Origin: Tumebacillus algifaecis
Lineage (GTDB): Bacteria; Bacillota; Bacilli; Tumebacillales; Tumebacillaceae
Length of the DNA: 64,000 nt
Direction: 5' to 3'
Assembly: GCF_002243515.1 (NCBI RefSeq)
Contig: NZ_CP022657.1
Span: forward strand, 1,479,001 to 1,543,000
The notes under the pieces are model-generated. The model made no database searches. It was not told where the DNA came from and saw only the letters and a program-made list of their open reading frames with translations. The position numbers and the translations under genes are program-made. Positions 12,482 to 26,890 of this stretch are shown here, piece by piece (position 1 is the stretch's first letter; every line of letters begins with the position of its first letter).

Positions 12482-13774
12482 TCAAGAGATGAGCAACGCC
12501 ATATCCCACTCTGGCGCATCCTCGGCAAGCAGGCTAAGCAGCGTCAAGGCGACTCCAGACGCGCCTTCCAAAAGTTCTGGCTTATGCTGCGTGGTGGATG
12601 CCGGATCATTGAAGCCGTACGGGTGTTGCTCGGAGAAGCTGTCCAGCACGCGGCGCGCAAGTTCGTCGCGGCAGGGAGCGAGTTCCGCAAGCCCAGTCTC
12701 TGCGTACATGCGCTGTACAAGGTGCAACAGCCCACCCCAGCCGTGGCAGATGTTGGGGGTGCACAGGTCCCATTGGCTGTCGATGCGATCGGCAACCCCG
12801 AGATAGGCGGCGATGCCTGCCTCTTTCCAGTCGGTGTGATCGAGAGCTTTGCCCGCAAGCCACATGGCGCGGCCGATGCCCGGTGCACCGTAGCACCAAG
12901 AGTAGGGGGTGTGCACTTTCTCAGCGCAGTGTCCCGACTGCCATGATTCGAACGAGACGCGTCCCGGCCAGAGCAGGGCATTTCCTTCCCTAGTTTGATA
13001 ATGTTCGATCCAAGCACCGAACCGTTGGATCGCCTCGCGTTGGCCGGGGATTTCCACACCTTGGAGCAGTGCTAAGCTGAGGGTCGCCAGCGGCCCTGCA
13101 ATCCCGTGGGAGAGCCCGAGATTAAAGCTGCCTTGCGGATAGCGATCAAATTCATCCTCCCTCATGTGCAGGTGGCTGTGAATGTGCCAAGCTGGGACGA
13201 GCGTCCCGTGCGCTTCTTTCTCCCCGCTGAGTGTGACCAGATAGCTGAGCACCTCGTGCAAAGCGGCGCGGACCTCCTCGCGGTCTGCAAAGGCGAGCAG
13301 GACTCGTCCGATGCCAGCCAGTCCTAGAACCGCATCATAATCGGTAATTCTCAACTCGTTGGCGATCCGCGAACGGGCCTCTTCGATGTGCGCGGGCAGC
13401 TGTTCGAGGAGCGAATGCAACAGGCTGGCCTGCATCTTCTGATAGCGCTCACCGCCGCGCGATAAAGCCTGCACCGCCAATACCGTACCGCTAAGCCCGC
13501 TCCATAGCGAGAGGTTGGGCACGCCGGCCGTCTGCAGACGTTGCTGGATGGCGATCAGACTTTGATGCCCGATGAGGTCCCAGCCTTCTTCGGGAAAGAG
13601 GTGATCGAGTGCTCCGTAGAGCAGGCACAGCCCTGCCGCACCACCTGCGAGGGAGGCGTCATGTTCCCAAGTCGCCTCCTTCAACCGCTCTGCGGTCAAG
13701 CGAACTGTGCGTTCCACTTCATTGCGCAGTTGTTCCGATTCAATCGGCTGCCACTGCAACTTTTTGGTTGTCAT
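12482..13774 (-). CDS. lanC: Class I lanthipeptide cyclase LanC
   Basis: 430 aa from the ATG at 13774, which has AGGAGG 11 nt upstream; the frame is open 22 codons further but without a better site. The protein is an alpha-toroid LanC-type cyclase. The three zinc ligands are visible: Cys294 in WCYGAPG, and Cys342-His343 in NICHGWGG. The motif GLSHGIAGPL earlier in the chain is also typical. LanC catalyses Michael addition of Cys thiols onto dehydrated Ser/Thr to close lanthionine rings, in complex with LanB and LanT at the membrane. Its start lies inside the end of lanT (35 nt overlap), so translation is probably coupled. Length is normal for the family (about 400-430 aa). Substrates are most likely the two precursors at 18991 and 19143. 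Confidence 0.93.
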   Translation of the reverse strand: MTTKKLQWQPIESEQLRNEVERTVRLTAERLKEATWEHDASLAGGAAGLCLLYGALDHLFPEEGWDLIGHQSLIAIQQRLQTAGVPNLSLWSGLSGTVLAVQALSRGGERYQKMQASLLHSLLEQLPAHIEEARSRIANELRITDYDAVLGLAGIGRVLLAFADREEVRAALHEVLSYLVTLSGEKEAHGTLVPAWHIHSHLHMREDEFDRYPQGSFNLGLSHGIAGPLATLSLALLQGVEIPGQREAIQRFGAWIEHYQTREGNALLWPGRVSFESWQSGHCAEKVHTPYSWCYGAPGIGRAMWLAGKALDHTDWKEAGIAAYLGVADRIDSQWDLCTPNICHGWGGLLHLVQRMYAETGLAELAPCRDELARRVLDSFSEQHPYGFNDPASTTQHKPELLEGASGVALTLLSLLAEDAPEWDMALLIS

Positions 13775-15614
13775 CTTCTGGACTTCCTCCTTTGTTGTCA
13801 GATAGATAGGCGTTAACTTGCATGTTGTACAGCTCTGCATACATGCCGTCCTGTGCCATCAACTCCGCATGTGAGCCGAACTCTACGACCTGCCCTTGAT
13901 CGAGCACCATGATCTTGTCGGCGAAGCGCACCGACGAATAGCGGTGGGAGATGAAAATGCCGAGGCGGTCGTCGAGCAGCTGTTGAAACTTGTGGAACAC
14001 ATCGGCCTCCGCCATCGGGTCCAAAAACGAACTCGGCTCATCGAGCAGGTACAGATCGGCCTCTCGGAAAAACGCCCGCGCGATCGCCACGCGCTGCCAC
14101 TGTCCGCCCGAAAGCTGATAGCCTTGTGCCAGCCAGCGGCCGAGTTTCGTGTCCAAGTGTTGTGGCATTGCTTCCAGCAGTGGTTTGATCCCGGCCTGCT
14201 CCGAGGCGTGATAGATTTTGTCATCTTCCTGCAAAGCTGGCAGATTGCCAAAGCCGATGTTATGCCGCACATCCGACTCATATTGCATAAAATCTTGAAA
14301 CACCACACCGACTCGCCGCTGGAGCGAATCGAGATCGAAAGAGCGCAGCGGTTCGCCGTTGAGCAGAATTTCCCCTGCATAGTTTGGATAGAGCCCGGTC
14401 AGCACTTTGACTAAGGTCGATTTGCCCGACCCGTTTTTGCCGACGACGGCCAGCGTCTCGCCGCGATGGAGCGTAAAGGAGACGTTATGCAAGGCATCGA
14501 CATCACGCCCTGGGTAGCGGAAGGTGACGTTTCGGAACTCGACCGTCTCCAGGGGCGGCACTTCCGGTCGAGCACTGGACAATTGCTTCTGTTCGGCAGA
14601 GTCCAGATCGAGGAAGAAGAACAGCTGTTTGATGTACAGGTTGTTCTGGCAGAGTTGGATCAGCCCTTGTACCACGCTTTGCGACGTGTTTTGGGTCAGC
14701 GTGATCGCTTGCACATAGCCGAACACGTTACCGATCAAGATCTCCTTGGCAAAAGCGGAGAGCAAAACGAGCAAGACCATCGAGGTGGTCAAAGTTAGCG
14801 ACACGCCTTCAAAGATTAAGGAGATCAGCAGACGTTTGCGAGCTAACAGCTTATCTTGGCGGAAGAATGTCATCAAGATGTCCATATATTTGTTGAGCAG
14901 GTAGTCGCCTAGCTGATACAGCCTGACCTCTTTGACCGCTTTGTCGTTGGTCAGCAGGTAGCTCCAGTACCAAGATTCGCGGCGCAAAGGCGCGCGGTGG
15001 TACTCATATTCGAACTGCTGCTGTGAGAGCCGGAGAAAAGAGATGAAAGAGGCGAAGGGCATCAGGATCAGTACAAAGGCGATCCACCACTTCCAGGCGA
15101 TCAAGACACCTGCGGCAGAAAGCATCGTCACAACGCCTGTGATCACGCTAAACATCTGTTTCATGATCTGATAAGGGCGGTACGACGCTTCTTGCTGGGC
15201 GCGTTTGAGCTGGTCTTGCACCTCGGCATTTTCAAACTCGGTGAGGCCAAGTCCGACCGCTTTTTCGATGATCGTCTGGTTGATTTTATTGGATAGTTTA
15301 GTCTGGAACAAACCTTCCTGATAGCCCTGCACCAGACTGATCAACTGCCTGACGATGACGACGATGATAAACATGACGAACGACGCGTACAGCACGTCGA
15401 TCCCTTTCTCCCACGATTCGCCGACCGAGTTGATCAAGTGAGTGGTGGCAAGGAGCATCGCGACAGGCGCGATCCCTTGTAGCAACTGCCAACCCAGCAA
15501 ACTGATCAGCATTCCCCGATCAACGCTCCAGAGCAGGCGGAAGATGCGAGGCCAGTAAATAAACGCTTGGAAGACACCCCGCAGCGTGACGCTCTCTTGG
15601 TCTTGGCCACTCAT
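13740..15614 (-). CDS. lanT: ABC exporter for the lanthipeptide (LanT type, no C39 peptidase)
   Basis: 624 aa half-transporter: an N-terminal membrane domain (about residues 30-330, several hydrophobic segments) fused to a nucleotide-binding domain with Walker A GKNGSGKST (~395), signature LSGGQ (~500), Walker B LYLLDEPSSFLD (~523) and switch His in ISHRYSS. It begins directly with a cytoplasmic helix and lacks the N-terminal cysteine peptidase of class II transporters, which fits a class I system in which a separate protease removes the leader. No LanP protease is seen in the window. The ATG overlaps the lanB stop (ATGA) and has GGGAGG 7 nt upstream. Presumably homodimeric, exporting the modified peptide. 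Confidence 0.92.
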   Translation of the reverse strand: MSGQDQESVTLRGVFQAFIYWPRIFRLLWSVDRGMLISLLGWQLLQGIAPVAMLLATTHLINSVGESWEKGIDVLYASFVMFIIVVIVRQLISLVQGYQEGLFQTKLSNKINQTIIEKAVGLGLTEFENAEVQDQLKRAQQEASYRPYQIMKQMFSVITGVVTMLSAAGVLIAWKWWIAFVLILMPFASFISFLRLSQQQFEYEYHRAPLRRESWYWSYLLTNDKAVKEVRLYQLGDYLLNKYMDILMTFFRQDKLLARKRLLISLIFEGVSLTLTTSMVLLVLLSAFAKEILIGNVFGYVQAITLTQNTSQSVVQGLIQLCQNNLYIKQLFFFLDLDSAEQKQLSSARPEVPPLETVEFRNVTFRYPGRDVDALHNVSFTLHRGETLAVVGKNGSGKSTLVKVLTGLYPNYAGEILLNGEPLRSFDLDSLQRRVGVVFQDFMQYESDVRHNIGFGNLPALQEDDKIYHASEQAGIKPLLEAMPQHLDTKLGRWLAQGYQLSGGQWQRVAIARAFFREADLYLLDEPSSFLDPMAEADVFHKFQQLLDDRLGIFISHRYSSVRFADKIMVLDQGQVVEFGSHAELMAQDGMYAELYNMQVNAYLSDNKGGSPEDDNQKVAVAAD

Positions 15615-18840: not shown

Positions 18841-18870
18841 ATTATACCTCAATACTTAATAAAGTGACAA
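18841..18870 (-). promoter_or_regulatory. lanB: Likely sigma-A promoter for lanBTC
   Basis: Read on the - strand: TTGTCA (18870-18865), an 18-nt spacer, and a perfect TATAAT (18846-18841), about 36 nt before the TTG start of lanB. The site sits in an AT-rich intergenic gap divergent from the precursor genes. Confidence 0.6.
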
Positions 18871-18927: not shown

Positions 18928-18990
18928 TTTTATAGTGTATGAGTTAAAATACATGTATGTTTATTTTACACTAGACATGGAGGTGAAGAA

Positions 18991-19101
18991 ATGGAAAACA
19001 TGTTCGATCTGGATGTTCAAGTTGGGAACATTGCTAAAGATGGGTTGGAAAAAATCTCTGGCAACACGTCCTGCATTAACGGATGCGATATTGATAACTA
19101 A
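18991..19101 (+). CDS. lanA1: Class I lanthipeptide precursor peptide 1
   Basis: 36 aa, too short for routine gene calling. AUG start with GGAGG 6 nt upstream (TGGAGGTGAAGAA). Leader: FDLDVQ at residues 5-10 matches the FNLD/FDLD box that LanB and LanC recognise. The C-terminal part (from about Gly18) holds Ser23, Thr26, Ser27, Cys28 and Cys32 (SGNTSCINGCD), enough for two thioether rings. A Gly-Asn-type junction (GNI at 12-14) and a Leu19-Glu20 pair are present, but no obvious PR/PQ or GG cleavage site is seen, so the leader/core boundary is uncertain. Its immediate neighbours are lanBTC (divergent) and the paralogue 41 nt downstream. A 70-codon frame covering 18899-19108 overlaps it in another register and has no supporting features. 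Confidence 0.85.
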   Translation: MENMFDLDVQVGNIAKDGLEKISGNTSCINGCDIDN

Positions 19102-19142
19102 TTGTTGACAGCAAGACATTGGTAAGTACGGAACTTCCGAAG

Positions 19143-19253
19143 TTGGAACACAAATTCGATTTGGATGTTCAAATGGGACACGTTGTTCAGGGTGAGTTGG
19201 AAAGATTGTATGGGTCGCCGTCCTGTGGGCGTACCTGCGATCCGACTCAGTAG
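19143..19253 (+). CDS. lanA2: Second lanthipeptide precursor paralogue, probable TTG start
   Basis: 36 aa if started at the TTG that aligns with the ATG of precursor 1. The two peptides then align end to end without a gap and share the first residue, Glu2, FDLDVQ (5-10), Gly12, Leu19-Glu20, Gly24, Ser27-Cys28 and Cys32-Asp33. The core differs elsewhere (GSPSCGRTCDPTQ), with Ser25, Ser27, Thr31 and Thr35 as dehydration candidates. The frame is open further upstream with another TTG at 19119. No strong RBS precedes either TTG (GGAAC/GAAG only), so the copy may be poorly translated, coupled to the upstream gene, or decaying. The preserved leader box and Cys spacing argue for selection. Followed 10 nt later by a strong terminator. 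Confidence 0.65.
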   Translation: MEHKFDLDVQMGHVVQGELERLYGSPSCGRTCDPTQ

Positions 19254-19263
19254 GCCACATGAG

Positions 19264-19302
19264 AAAAGTCTTTCGGATGTAAAATATCCGAAAGACTTTT
19301 TA
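19264..19302 (+). terminator. Intrinsic terminator of the precursor transcript
   Basis: 15-bp perfect stem AAAAGTCTTTCGGAT / ATCCGAAAGACTTTT (19264-19278 and 19286-19300) with a 7-nt loop and a T-run. It closes the precursor operon, so the thioesterase downstream needs its own promoter in 19303-19481, where I find no convincing -35/-10 pair. Confidence 0.92.
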
Positions 19303-19481: not shown

Positions 19482-20258
19482 ATGTCAACGATGCGTACGA
19501 CCGATAAGTGGATTGCACACAGAAAACAGAAGCCAAATGCACGGTTGCGGCTGTTCTGTTTCCCATATGCGGGGGGCAGTGCGGCGATTTATCGAGGATG
19601 GCAAGAGGAGTTTCCGGCCGAAGTCGATGTCTGTTCCGTTCAGTTGCCAGGGCGAGAGAGCAGATTGATGGATGAACCGTATACGCGCATTGAACCGATG
19701 GTCAAAGCGATCGTCGAAGCGCTCAAGCCGCACATGGATCGTCCGTTTGCGTTTTTTGGCCATTCGATGGGGGCGTTGATCTCCTTTGAAGTGGCGCGCG
19801 AAATGCGCCGCCAAAAGGTCGGACTTGAGCCTGTGCACCTGTTTGTCTCCGGACGCACCGCTCCACAGCGCAAGATTGAGCGCGATCCGGTGCACCAACT
19901 GCCGCACGATCAGTTCATCGAGCGACTGCGCACGCTCAATGGCACTCCGGAAGCGATATTGCAAAATGAAGAGCTGATGGAACTGCTGACCCCGGTCCTG
20001 CGCGCAGATTTTGCGGTCAATGAGACGTACGTGTATCAGCCGGAAGATCCGCTTCGCATTCCGATCCATTGCTATGGCGGCATCAGCGATAAGGACATTT
20101 CGGAAGCGAACCATGATGCATGGCGTGAGCAGACCACCGAAGCGTTCAAATTGCAGATGTACCAAGGGGATCATTTCTTCCTCAACCAACCGGAGAGTCG
20201 CCAAGCTCTGTTGGCCGATTTGACCTCCGAACTGAAACGAATTGTCAACCTGTTATAA
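19482..20258 (+). CDS. Type II (external) thioesterase of NRPS/PKS
   Basis: 258 aa alpha/beta hydrolase of the GrsT/SrfAD family. Visible elements: FCFPYAGGSA near the N-terminus, nucleophile Ser95 in GHSMGA, VQLPGRESR, and the C-terminal His in GDHFFL. These free-standing enzymes strip wrongly primed or stalled acyl groups from carrier domains and restore assembly-line throughput. AGAGGAG lies 10 nt before the ATG. It is followed after 18 nt by the acylase gene, with which it is likely co-transcribed. Its GC content and codon style match the NRPS blocks rather than the AT-rich precursor region just upstream, so it probably serves the NRPS/PKS genes and not the lanthipeptide. Confidence 0.93.
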   Translation: MSTMRTTDKWIAHRKQKPNARLRLFCFPYAGGSAAIYRGWQEEFPAEVDVCSVQLPGRESRLMDEPYTRIEPMVKAIVEALKPHMDRPFAFFGHSMGALISFEVAREMRRQKVGLEPVHLFVSGRTAPQRKIERDPVHQLPHDQFIERLRTLNGTPEAILQNEELMELLTPVLRADFAVNETYVYQPEDPLRIPIHCYGGISDKDISEANHDAWREQTTEAFKLQMYQGDHFFLNQPESRQALLADLTSELKRIVNLL

Positions 20259-22907: not shown

Positions 22908-24062
22908 TTACTTGAGAGGTAATATTTTCAAACCAAAGTGGTCCAAATTAATTTTGACGGTGACGGAATCTAATGAGTGTTCATTCAGCAGGGAGTCTCC
23001 CGAAGATTTTAACCTTTTCCAAACTCCAGTTTTATGTTTAAACAAAAGATGCTCCAAACGATACGGATCTGAATTGATTTTTAATCCATTTTGAAAAGTG
23101 GTCACGACCTCTGTTCGCACTACTTCCGCAGCGATTTTTTCGAGTTCCTCCCTTGTGACCTCTTTATAGACTTCATTTACATTCCCATTTAATTTGATAT
23201 GAAGTTGAAACTTCGGTTTTCCGTTCACGATTTTCATTGACTTTCGGACCTTTGGATGTTCCAAAGACAAGACAGCGGCATCTTCGCCATTTTTGGTAAT
23301 GGCGAGAAATGACTCTTTCGTTTTCTGCTCTACCCAACGGAGTCCCGTTAACTTCTTATTGTTAAGCAAGCCGATCAGCTTTCCCTCAGACATGGCATAC
23401 GCTCCGTCAACAAACAATTTCGGCTCTTTTTGTTCGTTTTTTTTCCACGTAGACCGATTGATCGACAAGGAGGGGAGCAAAATCGTGGTAGCCGGTTCTG
23501 TCAATTGTGCTGTCAGTTTAACAAATTGAGTCGGGGCAATGTAGGAGCGTTGTTTATAATCTTCTACAGGCTCATGTGACACCGTATTCAGGGGGGATAC
23601 ATTAAAGAATGCAGGTGTAGTAAGGATTTGATCAAGCGGCTCTTTCGTGCCGAATATCCATGGTGTAAGGCGAATTTCCTGATAGCGGCCAATTGCGTCA
23701 GTGCTGGTGAGGAAATCTGTCCTCAAGGCATTCTCGCTCATGATAATACATGAGATATGACTCCAAGACGTCCGCCCTTGCATTGAAGAATAAAGACGGT
23801 TCATGGCCTGCTTCAACGTTTTCCCTTTCGTTTTTCCAATCCACACCTGGGCAGGCTTATCCGACTTCCCAGTTTCAGTTTTTGCAACGTTTGTAAAATC
23901 AATCATTTGGGCATACAGAACGAAATGTTGATCCACATAATCAATGCCGATGCCCGTGACGTAATTGATGCTTTCGATTTCTTTAATATCCCAGCAGCCG
24001 CATATCAAGTTTACGAGCAAGAAAATGGGCATCAACTTAATTAATTTACTGTGAACTCTCAT
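22908..24062 (-). CDS. Spore germination lipoprotein, Ger(x)C family
   Basis: 384 aa. The N-terminus is a lipoprotein signal with lipobox LICGC and CWDIKEIESINYVTGIGID after it, the classic GerAC/GerKC opening; the rest is the soluble three-domain GerC fold exposed at the outer face of the spore inner membrane. It acts with the A and B subunits to sense germinants. I chose the ATG at 24062, two nt from the gerA stop and 12 nt after AAAGGG; the frame is open 11 codons further (24095) without a better RBS. Last gene of the B-A-C operon. No clear terminator is seen in the 71 bp between its stop and the acylase terminator. Confidence 0.92.
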   Translation of the reverse strand: MRVHSKLIKLMPIFLLVNLICGCWDIKEIESINYVTGIGIDYVDQHFVLYAQMIDFTNVAKTETGKSDKPAQVWIGKTKGKTLKQAMNRLYSSMQGRTSWSHISCIIMSENALRTDFLTSTDAIGRYQEIRLTPWIFGTKEPLDQILTTPAFFNVSPLNTVSHEPVEDYKQRSYIAPTQFVKLTAQLTEPATTILLPSLSINRSTWKKNEQKEPKLFVDGAYAMSEGKLIGLLNNKKLTGLRWVEQKTKESFLAITKNGEDAAVLSLEHPKVRKSMKIVNGKPKFQLHIKLNGNVNEVYKEVTREELEKIAAEVVRTEVVTTFQNGLKINSDPYRLEHLLFKHKTGVWKRLKSSGDSLLNEHSLDSVTVKINLDHFGLKILPLK

Positions 24063-24063
24063 C

Positions 24064-25590
24064 TCATTCGGCATCCCTTTCTTGGCGAGTGTCATCCGGC
24101 GTGTTCAGCATCGCGGGTCTTCTCTTAGTAGCAGCCCAGGGTTTGGTTAGTAATCCGGACATAAGGTCTTTCCAAGTTAGCGGGGATAGAGGTGCCAAAT
24201 AGGGGAGACCAAAGGACTCCTGAACGGAAAGGTAAGCAAGGAGGCTCAACATACCGATAAAGAAACCGAACATTCCCAGCAGGGAGGACCATAGGAAAAT
24301 ATACAGCCGGACGATGGTAACTGTTCCGCTTAACGTTTGATTGACAAGTGTGAAAGTAGACACAGCCGTTATGGCAGATACGACCAGCATGGTTGGTGAT
24401 GTAAGACCGGCACGAATCGCCGCCTCCCCGATGATCAGCCCGCCTAGGACGGCTACGGTTTGACCTACAGCTTTTGGCAAACGAATTCCTGCTTCTCTAA
24501 ATAGCTCGAACATGCCGAGCATTAAGAGAAATTCTATGGGTGTAGAAAACGGAAGTCCGAACCTAGATGTTGAGATGGTCGCAAGCAGGGGGAAGGGAAT
24601 CTGGTCCATGTTAAAGGAAGTCAGTGAGATCCAAAAACCCGGTAAGAAAATGGCCATAATCAAACCAATCAGCCGAAGGAATCGCTCAAAAATAACGAAA
24701 TGGTATGGCAGATAAGAATCCTCAGGTGTTTTTAGTAACTCAAAAAAGTTGCAAGGGGCAATAAGTGCCATCGGGGAACCGTCCACCAAGATGATAAAAC
24801 GCCCTCTGAGCAAACATTCTATTGCAAAATCGGGTCTCCCGATGTAATCCACGAGCGGAAATATCGATAAAGAAGAATCGGAGATCCCCTCTTCCAATTG
24901 GCCACTGCTTACCAATGCATCGACATCGAGCCGTTTCAAGCGTGCTCTCGCTTCTTCAATTACTTCGGAACGGATAATATCGGAAAAATACAGCAACGAT
25001 ACTTTGGTCTGGCTACGGGAACCGATGACCCACCGCTCATTGTGTAAGGAAGCGGTACGAAGCCGTTTACGTATTAATGCCACATTGGTGTTAATATCTT
25101 CGGTAAACCCGTCCCGAGCGCCTTTGATGGAAATTTCAGTATTTGATTCCTCGGTTTGTCTTTGTGGCACTTGGGCGATGTTGATCGAATAAAAGCACTC
25201 TTGGATCGGGAAAAAAACGATTACACATCCAGCGAAAAGAAGCTTTGCTACTTCAGAATGCTGGTTCAATCGACGCCATTCCATCGATTTTTCTAGCTCG
25301 AGAGCGAATTCTTCCCAAGTTTCGAAAATCTCCAGCATCCGTTCTAAATCGGGTAGCACGTGCTGATGCATGACTTTGGAATCAATCATTCCTTCGCAGT
25401 AAATCAGTAGCGTCGAAATCGCTCGATGTTGCTGATGCGGAAAGTTAATCATGACGACATCTGCTGATGAGGCAAATAAAGAGCGTAGCGATTCTTCGTT
25501 CAGTATTTCCGGAACAGAGTTCTTTTTCACGGCTGGGTTATTTTGTTTCATTTTCCTTTGAAATCTCTTGTTCAGGAAGTTGTCAGTCAT
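24064..25590 (-). CDS. Germinant receptor subunit A (GerA family)
   Basis: 508 aa from the ATG at 25590, with AAGGTGAT 8 nt upstream (frame open to 25638). The N-terminal half is the soluble GerA domain (RSQTKVSLLYFSDI, IEEARARLKRLDVDAL, DYIGRPDFAIECLLRGRFIILVDGSP), and the C-terminal half has about five hydrophobic segments (ISTSRFGLPFSTPIEFLLMLG, RLPKAVGQTVAVLGGLIIGEAAI). These are diagnostic of the integral-membrane A subunit that forms the receptor's ion-conducting oligomer and binds nutrient germinant together with the B subunit. The gap to gerB upstream is 7 nt and to gerC 1 nt. The gene is visibly AT-richer than the flanking NRPS genes. Confidence 0.95.
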   Translation of the reverse strand: MTDNFLNKRFQRKMKQNNPAVKKNSVPEILNEESLRSLFASSADVVMINFPHQQHRAISTLLIYCEGMIDSKVMHQHVLPDLERMLEIFETWEEFALELEKSMEWRRLNQHSEVAKLLFAGCVIVFFPIQECFYSINIAQVPQRQTEESNTEISIKGARDGFTEDINTNVALIRKRLRTASLHNERWVIGSRSQTKVSLLYFSDIIRSEVIEEARARLKRLDVDALVSSGQLEEGISDSSLSIFPLVDYIGRPDFAIECLLRGRFIILVDGSPMALIAPCNFFELLKTPEDSYLPYHFVIFERFLRLIGLIMAIFLPGFWISLTSFNMDQIPFPLLATISTSRFGLPFSTPIEFLLMLGMFELFREAGIRLPKAVGQTVAVLGGLIIGEAAIRAGLTSPTMLVVSAITAVSTFTLVNQTLSGTVTIVRLYIFLWSSLLGMFGFFIGMLSLLAYLSVQESFGLPYLAPLSPLTWKDLMSGLLTKPWAATKRRPAMLNTPDDTRQERDAE

Positions 25591-25597
25591 ACTCTTA

Positions 25598-26680
25598 TCA
25601 CCTTTTACATTGGACTTTAAGGATCGTGGAGAAGGCAATGATGATCGTTAGTGCCGCAAGAAACGTGAAAGAGACCACAGAGTACTTGCCTAATATGAAT
25701 AATTCGATCTGTTTATCGACCGCTGAGTTTAATGTCAATCCAATCAAGGCTGCACCAAGTACGAACAAGAAGGGGAGACGGCGCTTTTGGTTCTTGAAAG
25801 GAATCATGTCTGTGATGATAAATAGGAAGAGGGAGATACGGATTAAAGATCCGGACAACCACTGATACAAGGCAAAAAAGTCAAGATGAGTGATATATTT
25901 GGTGATACTAACTAGCATCCACTGATCATAAGCGGGATATCGGAGTTGCATCGCCGCTTCAAAGCCGAAATTAGCAATAGCTCCCATTAACGGCCCCAAT
26001 GTAAGTCCAGCCAGTACAGCAGCCAGAATGCTAACAGATAAGTAACTGATTCGACGAGACATATGATGTTGGATGAAGATCAAAACGATCAATTCCAGAA
26101 AGCCTCCACCTGCAACGATCATACTTTTGAGCATAGGCTTGTACCCTTCGGTGAATAACGGGGTCAGTAAGGAGTAATCTTTGTACTGGAGGTTTGCTAC
26201 GGCTACAAAGTGACCCAATATCCAAACGAAGGGGAGCAAGATCCCAGATATGATTGCAATAGATCGAATCCCGTTGAAGGCGACGAAGATGCACAGCAGG
26301 ACAAGGGCGATCAGAACAACCACTTTTGGCGTGTGTGGCAAGTATGTCACTTTGATCCAAGTGGATGTCTCTCTTACCATAATCAAAGCCATCAGGAAAA
26401 AATAAAATGTGGAAACGATCAGAAATAACCAGCCGACCACGGCACCGTAGCGCTCCCTGAACCAAGGAAATATGGACTGCTGGTTTGTTCGTTTCATAAT
26501 GAAGCAAAGAGAATATACCCAAATCATGAGCAAAAGCATTGTCAATAATACGCCGACCCATGCGTCGCGTTTGGCTGTTTGCAGAAGAAGCGGGAGCAGA
26601 ATGACATGATTAGTAATCCCTAATGAGAGCAATATAATAAAATAGGCATTAAGAACTGAAATTTTCTTGCCTGTTGACAT
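25598..26680 (-). CDS. Germinant receptor subunit B (GerAB/amino-acid permease family)
   Basis: 360 aa, about ten predicted hydrophobic helices over the whole length (e.g. IILLSLGITNHVILLPLLL, VVGWLFLIVSTFYFFLMALI), an APC-fold permease relative that binds the amino-acid or sugar germinant. Start chosen at the ATG at 26680, preceded by GGAGAT 7 nt upstream; the alternative ATG at 26695 is that same GGAG's own codon context and has only CCAAG before it. Promoter-distal order is B-A-C, unlike the A-B-C order of Bacillus gerA. I could not find a sigma-G promoter in the 200 bp upstream with confidence. Confidence 0.93.
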   Translation of the reverse strand: MSTGKKISVLNAYFIILLSLGITNHVILLPLLLQTAKRDAWVGVLLTMLLLMIWVYSLCFIMKRTNQQSIFPWFRERYGAVVGWLFLIVSTFYFFLMALIMVRETSTWIKVTYLPHTPKVVVLIALVLLCIFVAFNGIRSIAIISGILLPFVWILGHFVAVANLQYKDYSLLTPLFTEGYKPMLKSMIVAGGGFLELIVLIFIQHHMSRRISYLSVSILAAVLAGLTLGPLMGAIANFGFEAAMQLRYPAYDQWMLVSITKYITHLDFFALYQWLSGSLIRISLFLFIITDMIPFKNQKRRLPFLFVLGAALIGLTLNSAVDKQIELFILGKYSVVSFTFLAALTIIIAFSTILKVQCKR

Positions 26681-26890
26681 ATCGCTTATCTCCATTCTTG
26701 GGGATCTTGTATCTTGATACTGGTAAGAGTATTTTCCATTTGATGTATTTTAATGTATGGTTGATCTGTTCGACAAGAAAAGCCAATACAGGTACGAATG
26801 ACTTGCTTGCGATCCGAACCGCATGATTCTGGTACGGAAGCACAAAACGTCACAACCATCGCTTCAATAATCGAGAGAAGACCGCTCCAC

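Follow-up and report, generated by a model that had tools for sequence, protein, structure and literature searches.

A LanB/LanC/LanT locus of Tumebacillus algifaecis as the likely hub of a dispersed set of FDLD-type class I lanthipeptide precursors

In class I lanthipeptide biosynthesis, LanB glutamylates Ser and Thr residues from glutamyl-tRNA and then carries out the elimination, and LanC adds Cys thiols. Precursors with an FDLD leader box already form a known family, NCBIfam NF038155 ('FDLD family class I lanthipeptide'). The closest solved relatives of the enzymes described here are MadB and MadC of the maddinglicin system (MadA/MadB/MadC) of Clostridium maddingley. The maddinglicin precursor has an FDLD leader, the binding of which by MadB has been resolved (PMC12241602), and MadA has seven Cys residues and nisin-like first rings (PMC9889658). 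A class I cluster with 10 distinct precursors has been described in T. flagellatus (Walker et al. 2020, PMC7268733), which shares both the bacterial family and the precursor type with the system reported below.

Systems in which one enzyme set serves many substrates, including distant ones, have been described for class II. The prochlorosin precursors, which are modified by ProcM, have shared leaders and free cores, and many are encoded far from the enzyme (PMC7268733, PMC12328550). We found no class I case of this type, and no report of dispersed class I precursor arrays, in the open-licence literature that we searched. Walker et al. 2020 covered seven genes on each side of a LanC-domain gene, and prochlorosin precursors far from LanM escape such a neighbourhood search (PMC7268733); dispersed class I loci would therefore lie beyond its reach.

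Here we analyse a 64,000-nucleotide stretch of the T. algifaecis genome (the window), whose LanB, LanC and LanT likely form the hub for modification and export in a dispersed class I system, one that includes action in trans. Unlike MadA, the precursors of this system have short cores, mostly with two Cys residues, and they are many.

Precursors and enzymes in the window

The features of the locus, in window coordinates, are as follows.

12482–13840, minus strand: LanC cyclase, 452 aa; no other LanC-domain gene was found in the genome
13740–15614, minus strand: LanT-like ABC exporter, 624 aa
15611–18805, minus strand: LanB dehydratase, 1064 aa, full-length; divergent to A1
18841–18870, minus strand: probable lanB promoter, TTGTCA-18-TATAAT, 11/12; within a block conserved in three species
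18979–18986, plus strand: strong Shine–Dalgarno sequence of A1, GGAGGTGA, 4 nt 5′ of the ATG
18991–19101, plus strand: A1, class I lanthipeptide precursor, 36 aa, ATG start, FDLDVQ leader box, S23-x3-S27-C28-x3-C32 core
19143–19253, plus strand: A2, paralogue of A1, 36 aa from TTG; weak translation signals, possibly decaying
19263–19301, plus strand: terminator-like hairpin, 18 pairs and a T-rich tail, directly 3′ of A2; closes the A1–A2 unit
19482–20258, plus strand: stand-alone thioesterase, downstream of A1 and A2

Read from its ATG, A1 encodes the 36-residue peptide MENMFDLDVQVGNIAKDGLEKISGNTSCINGCDIDN. It resembles the NF038155 family in its FDLD leader box, in its adjacency to LanB and LanC, and in its score (23.9–25.6 bits in two scans, over the curated cut-off of 20 bits). 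Because the FDLD profile used for genome searches included A1 and A2, the six-frame ORFs of the window were scored with a separate profile of 118 other FDLD peptides, from which A1, A2 and the T. avium orthologue were excluded. The two best-scoring ORFs were A1 (E = 3e-10) and then A2 (E = 0.0013), with the next at E = 0.3. The single precursor beside lanB in T. avium, MENHFDLDVQVGEATVDVTRRDLTGNTSCLISCDIDI, is 58% identical to A1. A candidate promoter of A1 (TTGATA-17-TACTAT) matches 9 of 12 consensus positions; the A1 region has 2 promoter-like sites compared with 2.5 in shuffles, and therefore no excess. Judged by its sequence, A1 is a convincing class I lanthipeptide precursor.

A2 (MEHKFDLDVQMGHVVQGELERLYGSPSCGRTCDPTQ, 36 aa if started at the TTG at 19143) has no ATG. 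Its Shine–Dalgarno match is GGA alone, among the three shortest of the 123 FDLD ORFs collected below, and against NF038155 it scored 13.7 bits in one scan, under the cut-off, and gave no match in the second. Of the 122 other FDLD peptides it matches A1 best, aligning with it without gaps at 16 of 36 identical residues; the same comparison yielded no clear A2 orthologue beside lanB of T. avium or of the related genome G001. The divergence of the two genes (pS 0.45, pN 0.36) appears weakly constrained, and the most plausible reading of A2 is a local duplicate of A1 under weak constraint, which may be decaying or poorly translated. The hairpin that follows A2 (−23.2 kcal/mol, z = −7.4), which a simple consensus terminator scan did not list, suggests that A1 and A2 are probably on one transcript. 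A plasmid collection searched with the A1–A2 region returned no match.

The original prediction had described two precursor genes of equal length between lanB and an NRPS thioesterase gene. The two frames are at the stated positions, with lanB divergent upstream and a stand-alone thioesterase gene downstream, and the checked translations bear out the gapless alignment and the residues common to both peptides (FDLDVQ at 5–10, L19-E20, G24, S27-C28 and C32-D33). Both peptides combine an F-x-L-D type leader with a core that contains Ser/Thr and Cys, and the spacing expected for overlapping rings fits A1 (S23 to C28, S27 to C32) and partly fits A2. The assignment to class I is right for A1, by homology, and plausible for A2, which is doubtful as a gene owing to its TTG start, its GGA-only Shine–Dalgarno match and its score below the NF038155 cut-off. 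Conservation next to lanB in relatives, proposed at the time as a check, was found for A1 in T. avium and, in clear form, not for A2. The prediction could match the S-C-x3-C-D core to no named lanthipeptide and suggested that the product may be new, but the kind is already known: A1 falls in NF038155, 45 of 123 FDLD peptides have an [S/T]-C-x3-C core, including 43 of the 67 from the genus of the window, and the T. flagellatus cluster with its 10 distinct precursors is in print.

LanB carries PF04738 and PF14028 (the glutamylation and elimination domains) over its full length. Its closest solved structure is MadB (9g04, E = 7e-176), and NisB was also matched. PMC12241602 provides the residue roles for LanB chemistry and a list of nine catalytic residues of MadB, of which we compared eight, H1005 being beyond the aligned part: R89, R93, T95, D128, D308, R483, R822 and R864 correspond to R107, R111, T113, D147, D333, R507, R840 and R883 of the window LanB. 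Nine hydrogen-bond contacts of MadB to the FDLD leader were also considered (PMC12241602), and eight were mapped, with D785 outside the mapped set; the window LanB retains four of them, R161, S180, R182 and T184 (its R182, S206, R208 and T210), and G177, E178, K218 and Q225 are changed. LanC (PF05147) matches MadC and NisC, and its zinc motifs WCYG and CHG align with those of both proteins, the NisC zinc ligands being as given in PMC9889658. A Pfam scan found no peptidase domain in the LanT-like exporter, and we identified no candidate for a leader protease.

LanB, the exporter, precursors and the thioesterase also occur together in G001 and T. avium, where LanC follows and a small gene or two lie between the precursors and the thioesterase. 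LanB identity among the three genomes is 69–70%, and G001 has six precursors beside LanB, all divergent to it. Farther downstream of the thioesterase, the window encodes a penicillin acylase, which was also matched at the T. avium locus, and then a spore-germination operon and NRPS genes. This operon, of the GerX type (window 22908–26695), separates the acylase from the next NRPS genes; the T. avium acylase has an NRPS-type gene directly after it.

FDLD precursors across the genome and the family

The FDLD profile (E ≤ 0.01) found 25 places at six loci of the T. algifaecis genome, comprising 24 intact ORFs and one pseudogene. Two of these places are in the window, two at 1.013 Mb, nine at 1.793–1.795 Mb (including the pseudogene, which has an internal TAA), one at 1.870 Mb, two at 3.091–3.092 Mb and nine at 3.731–3.733 Mb. 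The match at 3731836 was flagged for a TAA in the profile search, but the frame runs uninterrupted up to its own stop codon; the 1.870 Mb ORF, with 31 aa, one Cys and a weak Shine–Dalgarno sequence, is doubtful. A1 and A2 are the LanB-linked minority of this set: 22 of the 24 intact ORFs lie in orphan loci at least 295 kb from LanB. The genome has one full-length LanB and one LanC, both inside the window; no class II LanM was found in it, and the window LanC is its sole LanC-domain match. With many shared-leader precursors, most of them distant, and one LanB and one LanC, the system resembles the prochlorosins. It differs from them in having LanB and LanC instead of LanM, and an FDLD instead of a Nif11-type leader, which makes this an analogy and not a membership.

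The NF038155 model alone reported 8 of the 25 places at E ≤ 0.01, seven of them away from LanB and one of these seven the pseudogene. A2 and several orphan peptides of this genome differ from that family in scoring under its cut-off. Of the 24 intact ORFs, 23 have at least two Cys residues beyond residue 12, and 21 have a Shine–Dalgarno match of at least 5 nt. Mean identity within the genome is 0.76 for the leader box, compared with 0.21 for the rest of the peptide.

The 1.79 Mb array contains eight intact genes with their own Shine–Dalgarno sequences and terminator-like hairpins, and is situated between a pseudouridine synthase gene and a xanthine/uracil permease gene; arrays adjoin the same pseudouridine synthase in G001 and G002. 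The 3.73 Mb array has Shine–Dalgarno sequences and a transposase alongside, and none of its nine genes is followed by a terminator-like hairpin. Its peptides are near-identical to those of a G001 array, which suggests that arrays move.

At 3.09 Mb (L041, G000:C1:3082500–3101500, at 8.8–12.5 kb of a partly masked stretch), two FDLDLQ precursors lie 151 bp from where a gene on the same strand ends that encodes AMP-binding, carrier and reductase domains. This proximity, and the joint occurrence of the LanC, LanT and LanB genes, precursors and thioesterase in G001 and T. avium as well as in the window, would fit a further explanation, in which A1 and A2 belong to the flanking NRPS cluster and contribute to a hybrid product, with the thioesterase and acylase acting on the peptide. 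However, the genome has 111 condensation-domain matches and 17.2% of it lies within 10 kb of one, so that one of six FDLD loci near such a domain (or two of six, if the reductase-ended gene at 3.09 Mb is counted) is little above chance; by eye, none of the listed frames at the G003 LanB locus is NRPS-like. We consider such membership in the NRPS cluster very unlikely. As for the association of FDLD loci in general with NRPS genes, these counts are not convincing either way.

We extended the count to six Tumebacillaceae genomes and collected 123 FDLD ORFs at 48 loci, 40 of which are far from LanB. Forty of the ORFs lie within 20 kb of a full-length LanB, 14 of these in G006, and 83 are farther away or on another contig. 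The census covers the fetched stretches under a strict motif and includes some doubtful frames (such as that at 1.870 Mb). It started from 125 rows, of which two were dropped (an NRPS frame in the window and a frame overlapping a precursor), and weak profile matches beside the extra LanB genes of G001 and G002 were left out. A Shine–Dalgarno match of at least 5 nt precedes 114 of the 123 ORFs, compared with a mean of 23 (range 14–31) in 50 upstream shuffles, a count that is favoured by our choice of the start codon with the best Shine–Dalgarno sequence. Terminator-like hairpins within 90 nt follow 68 of 123, compared with 2 in one shuffle. At least two Cys residues beyond residue 12 are present in 107 of 123, and an [S/T]-x3-[S/T]-C-x3-C core in 22 of 123.

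Among seven family members, G005 is the only genome without LanB and LanC, and the only one without FDLD ORFs (no match better than E = 0.24). G003, G004 and G006 each carry a single full-length LanB and a single LanC. Full-length LanB genes number three in G001 and two in G002, which makes the assignment of enzymes to arrays ambiguous there. Across 398 genomes of the class, in which at most 19 candidates were scored per genome so that match counts are lower bounds, at least seven genomes had FDLD matches at E ≤ 0.01. All family members but one of the seven are among them, together with one genome outside the family, where the match is weak (E = 0.002).

In sister species, some orphan loci are syntenic and, judged by their substitutions, under purifying selection. 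For 11 hand-picked orphan orthologue pairs of G001 and G002, pooled pS was 0.372 and pN 0.144 (Fisher p = 4e-16); beyond the leader region, the same pairs gave pS 0.315 and pN 0.166 (p = 4e-5). In two of the 11 pairs pN is at or above pS. Seven pairs between T. algifaecis and G001 (pS 0.043, pN 0.023) are too similar to be more than weak evidence of selection.

These observations bear on whether the enzymes of the window form a local system only, which modifies A1 (and A2) and leaves the orphan loci as unserved relics or mobile debris. We regard this as unlikely. The pseudogene in the 1.79 Mb array and the transposase that adjoins the 3.73 Mb array would be expected of debris, as would the G003 orphan that has a lanB remnant and an ABC transporter for neighbours; yet 24 of the 25 T. 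algifaecis copies are intact, Shine–Dalgarno and terminator signals are far above those of shuffles, orphan pairs are under purifying selection beyond the leader region too, and the one genome without LanB has no FDLD ORFs. In G003 (L077, G003:C1:672000–691000, at about 8.7–11 kb), the LanB remnant and the transporter beside the orphan precursor look like a decaying lan cluster, and the remnant shows how an orphan may arise.

At two further loci, L129 (G001:C2:748500–759500) and L088 (G002:C1:468000–487900), in two species, FDLD precursors accompany a LanC gene while their surroundings gave no LanB match, so that the dehydratase would have to act from elsewhere. Besides Lan genes and syntenic neighbours, the neighbour genes common to FDLD loci mostly belong to large families. 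Related HTH regulators lie near FDLD loci L047, L056, L058, L088 and L129 (a raw count of five loci); the two that were scanned have HTH and TPR domains.

Proposed action of the hub in trans

On balance, our analysis makes it probable that a dispersed, evolving library of FDLD precursors in Tumebacillus and the sister genus is served in trans by a LanB/LanC (and LanT) hub, which would make the system the class I equivalent of the prochlorosins. Each genome would have one to two dozen precursors. Most of their loci would be remote from the hub, and some would sit between housekeeping genes and carry ribosome-binding sites and terminators of their own. Action in trans is suggested by the presence of one full-length LanB and one LanC for 24 intact FDLD ORFs, 22 of them far away, by the co-absence of the enzymes and FDLD ORFs in G005, and by a leader box that is shared while the rest of the peptide varies. 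The orphans look like live genes, because Shine–Dalgarno and hairpin counts exceed those of shuffles and because of the purifying selection. Counting against action in trans, the co-absence rests on one genome, four of the MadB leader contacts are not kept in LanB, and a second LanB-type protein is encoded at 2.65 Mb, though in a YcaO cluster.

In the proposed mechanism, the recognition pocket of LanB would bind the FDLDVQ leader box, and LanB would dehydrate Ser and Thr residues of the short variable core. LanC would then add the Cys thiols, most likely forming two small overlapping rings in [S/T]-x3-[S/T]-C-x3-C cores. LanT would export the peptide, and a protease encoded elsewhere would remove the leader. 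A1 would be the cluster-linked substrate of the hub and A2 a poorly translated or decaying paralogue, and the same LanB and LanC would act in trans, via the shared leader box, on the majority of the roughly 22 other precursors, which lie in distant orphan loci.

The orphan arrays could instead be modified by another enzyme, for example an unrecognised one encoded locally or the LanB-type protein at 2.65 Mb. The latter carries PF04738 and is accompanied by two separate PF14028 proteins; it is also accompanied by a YcaO protein, and the scanned stretch around it contains no FDLD ORF. Furthermore, G004 and G006 have FDLD loci without such a second LanB, and Pfam scans of ten neighbours at three orphan loci and the 3.09 Mb locus revealed no RiPP-type modifying enzyme. 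Modification of the arrays by another enzyme is very unlikely in our estimate, and the 2.65 Mb protein was judged an unlikely array modifier on its YcaO context, the lack of a local FDLD ORF and its absence from G004 and G006. The scanned stretch (L073, G000:C1:2636000–2655900), which holds this LanB-type N-terminal protein, is a second, different RiPP cluster.

If the hub does act in trans, its LanB/LanC pair would be permissive by nature, a class I enzyme set that could be tried on more than 100 natural cores from six genomes and would be useful for peptide engineering. It would also mean that mining tools restricted to LanB/LanC neighbourhoods overlook 83 of our 123 precursors.

Multiple FDLD-type precursors are also found outside the family. 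One LanB locus of Clostridium ihumii AP5 (L116, 15083–19779) contains nine FDLD/FNLD-type ORFs, mostly with Cys-rich cores and one with a single Cys, so that precursor multiplicity alone is not unique to the system described here. In Paenibacillus (L094–L099, L102, L112 and L114), FDLD precursors occur in pairs or quartets, and most of their cores consist of short Cys units in repeat, such as CYSSQ, CFSSK or CITSK.
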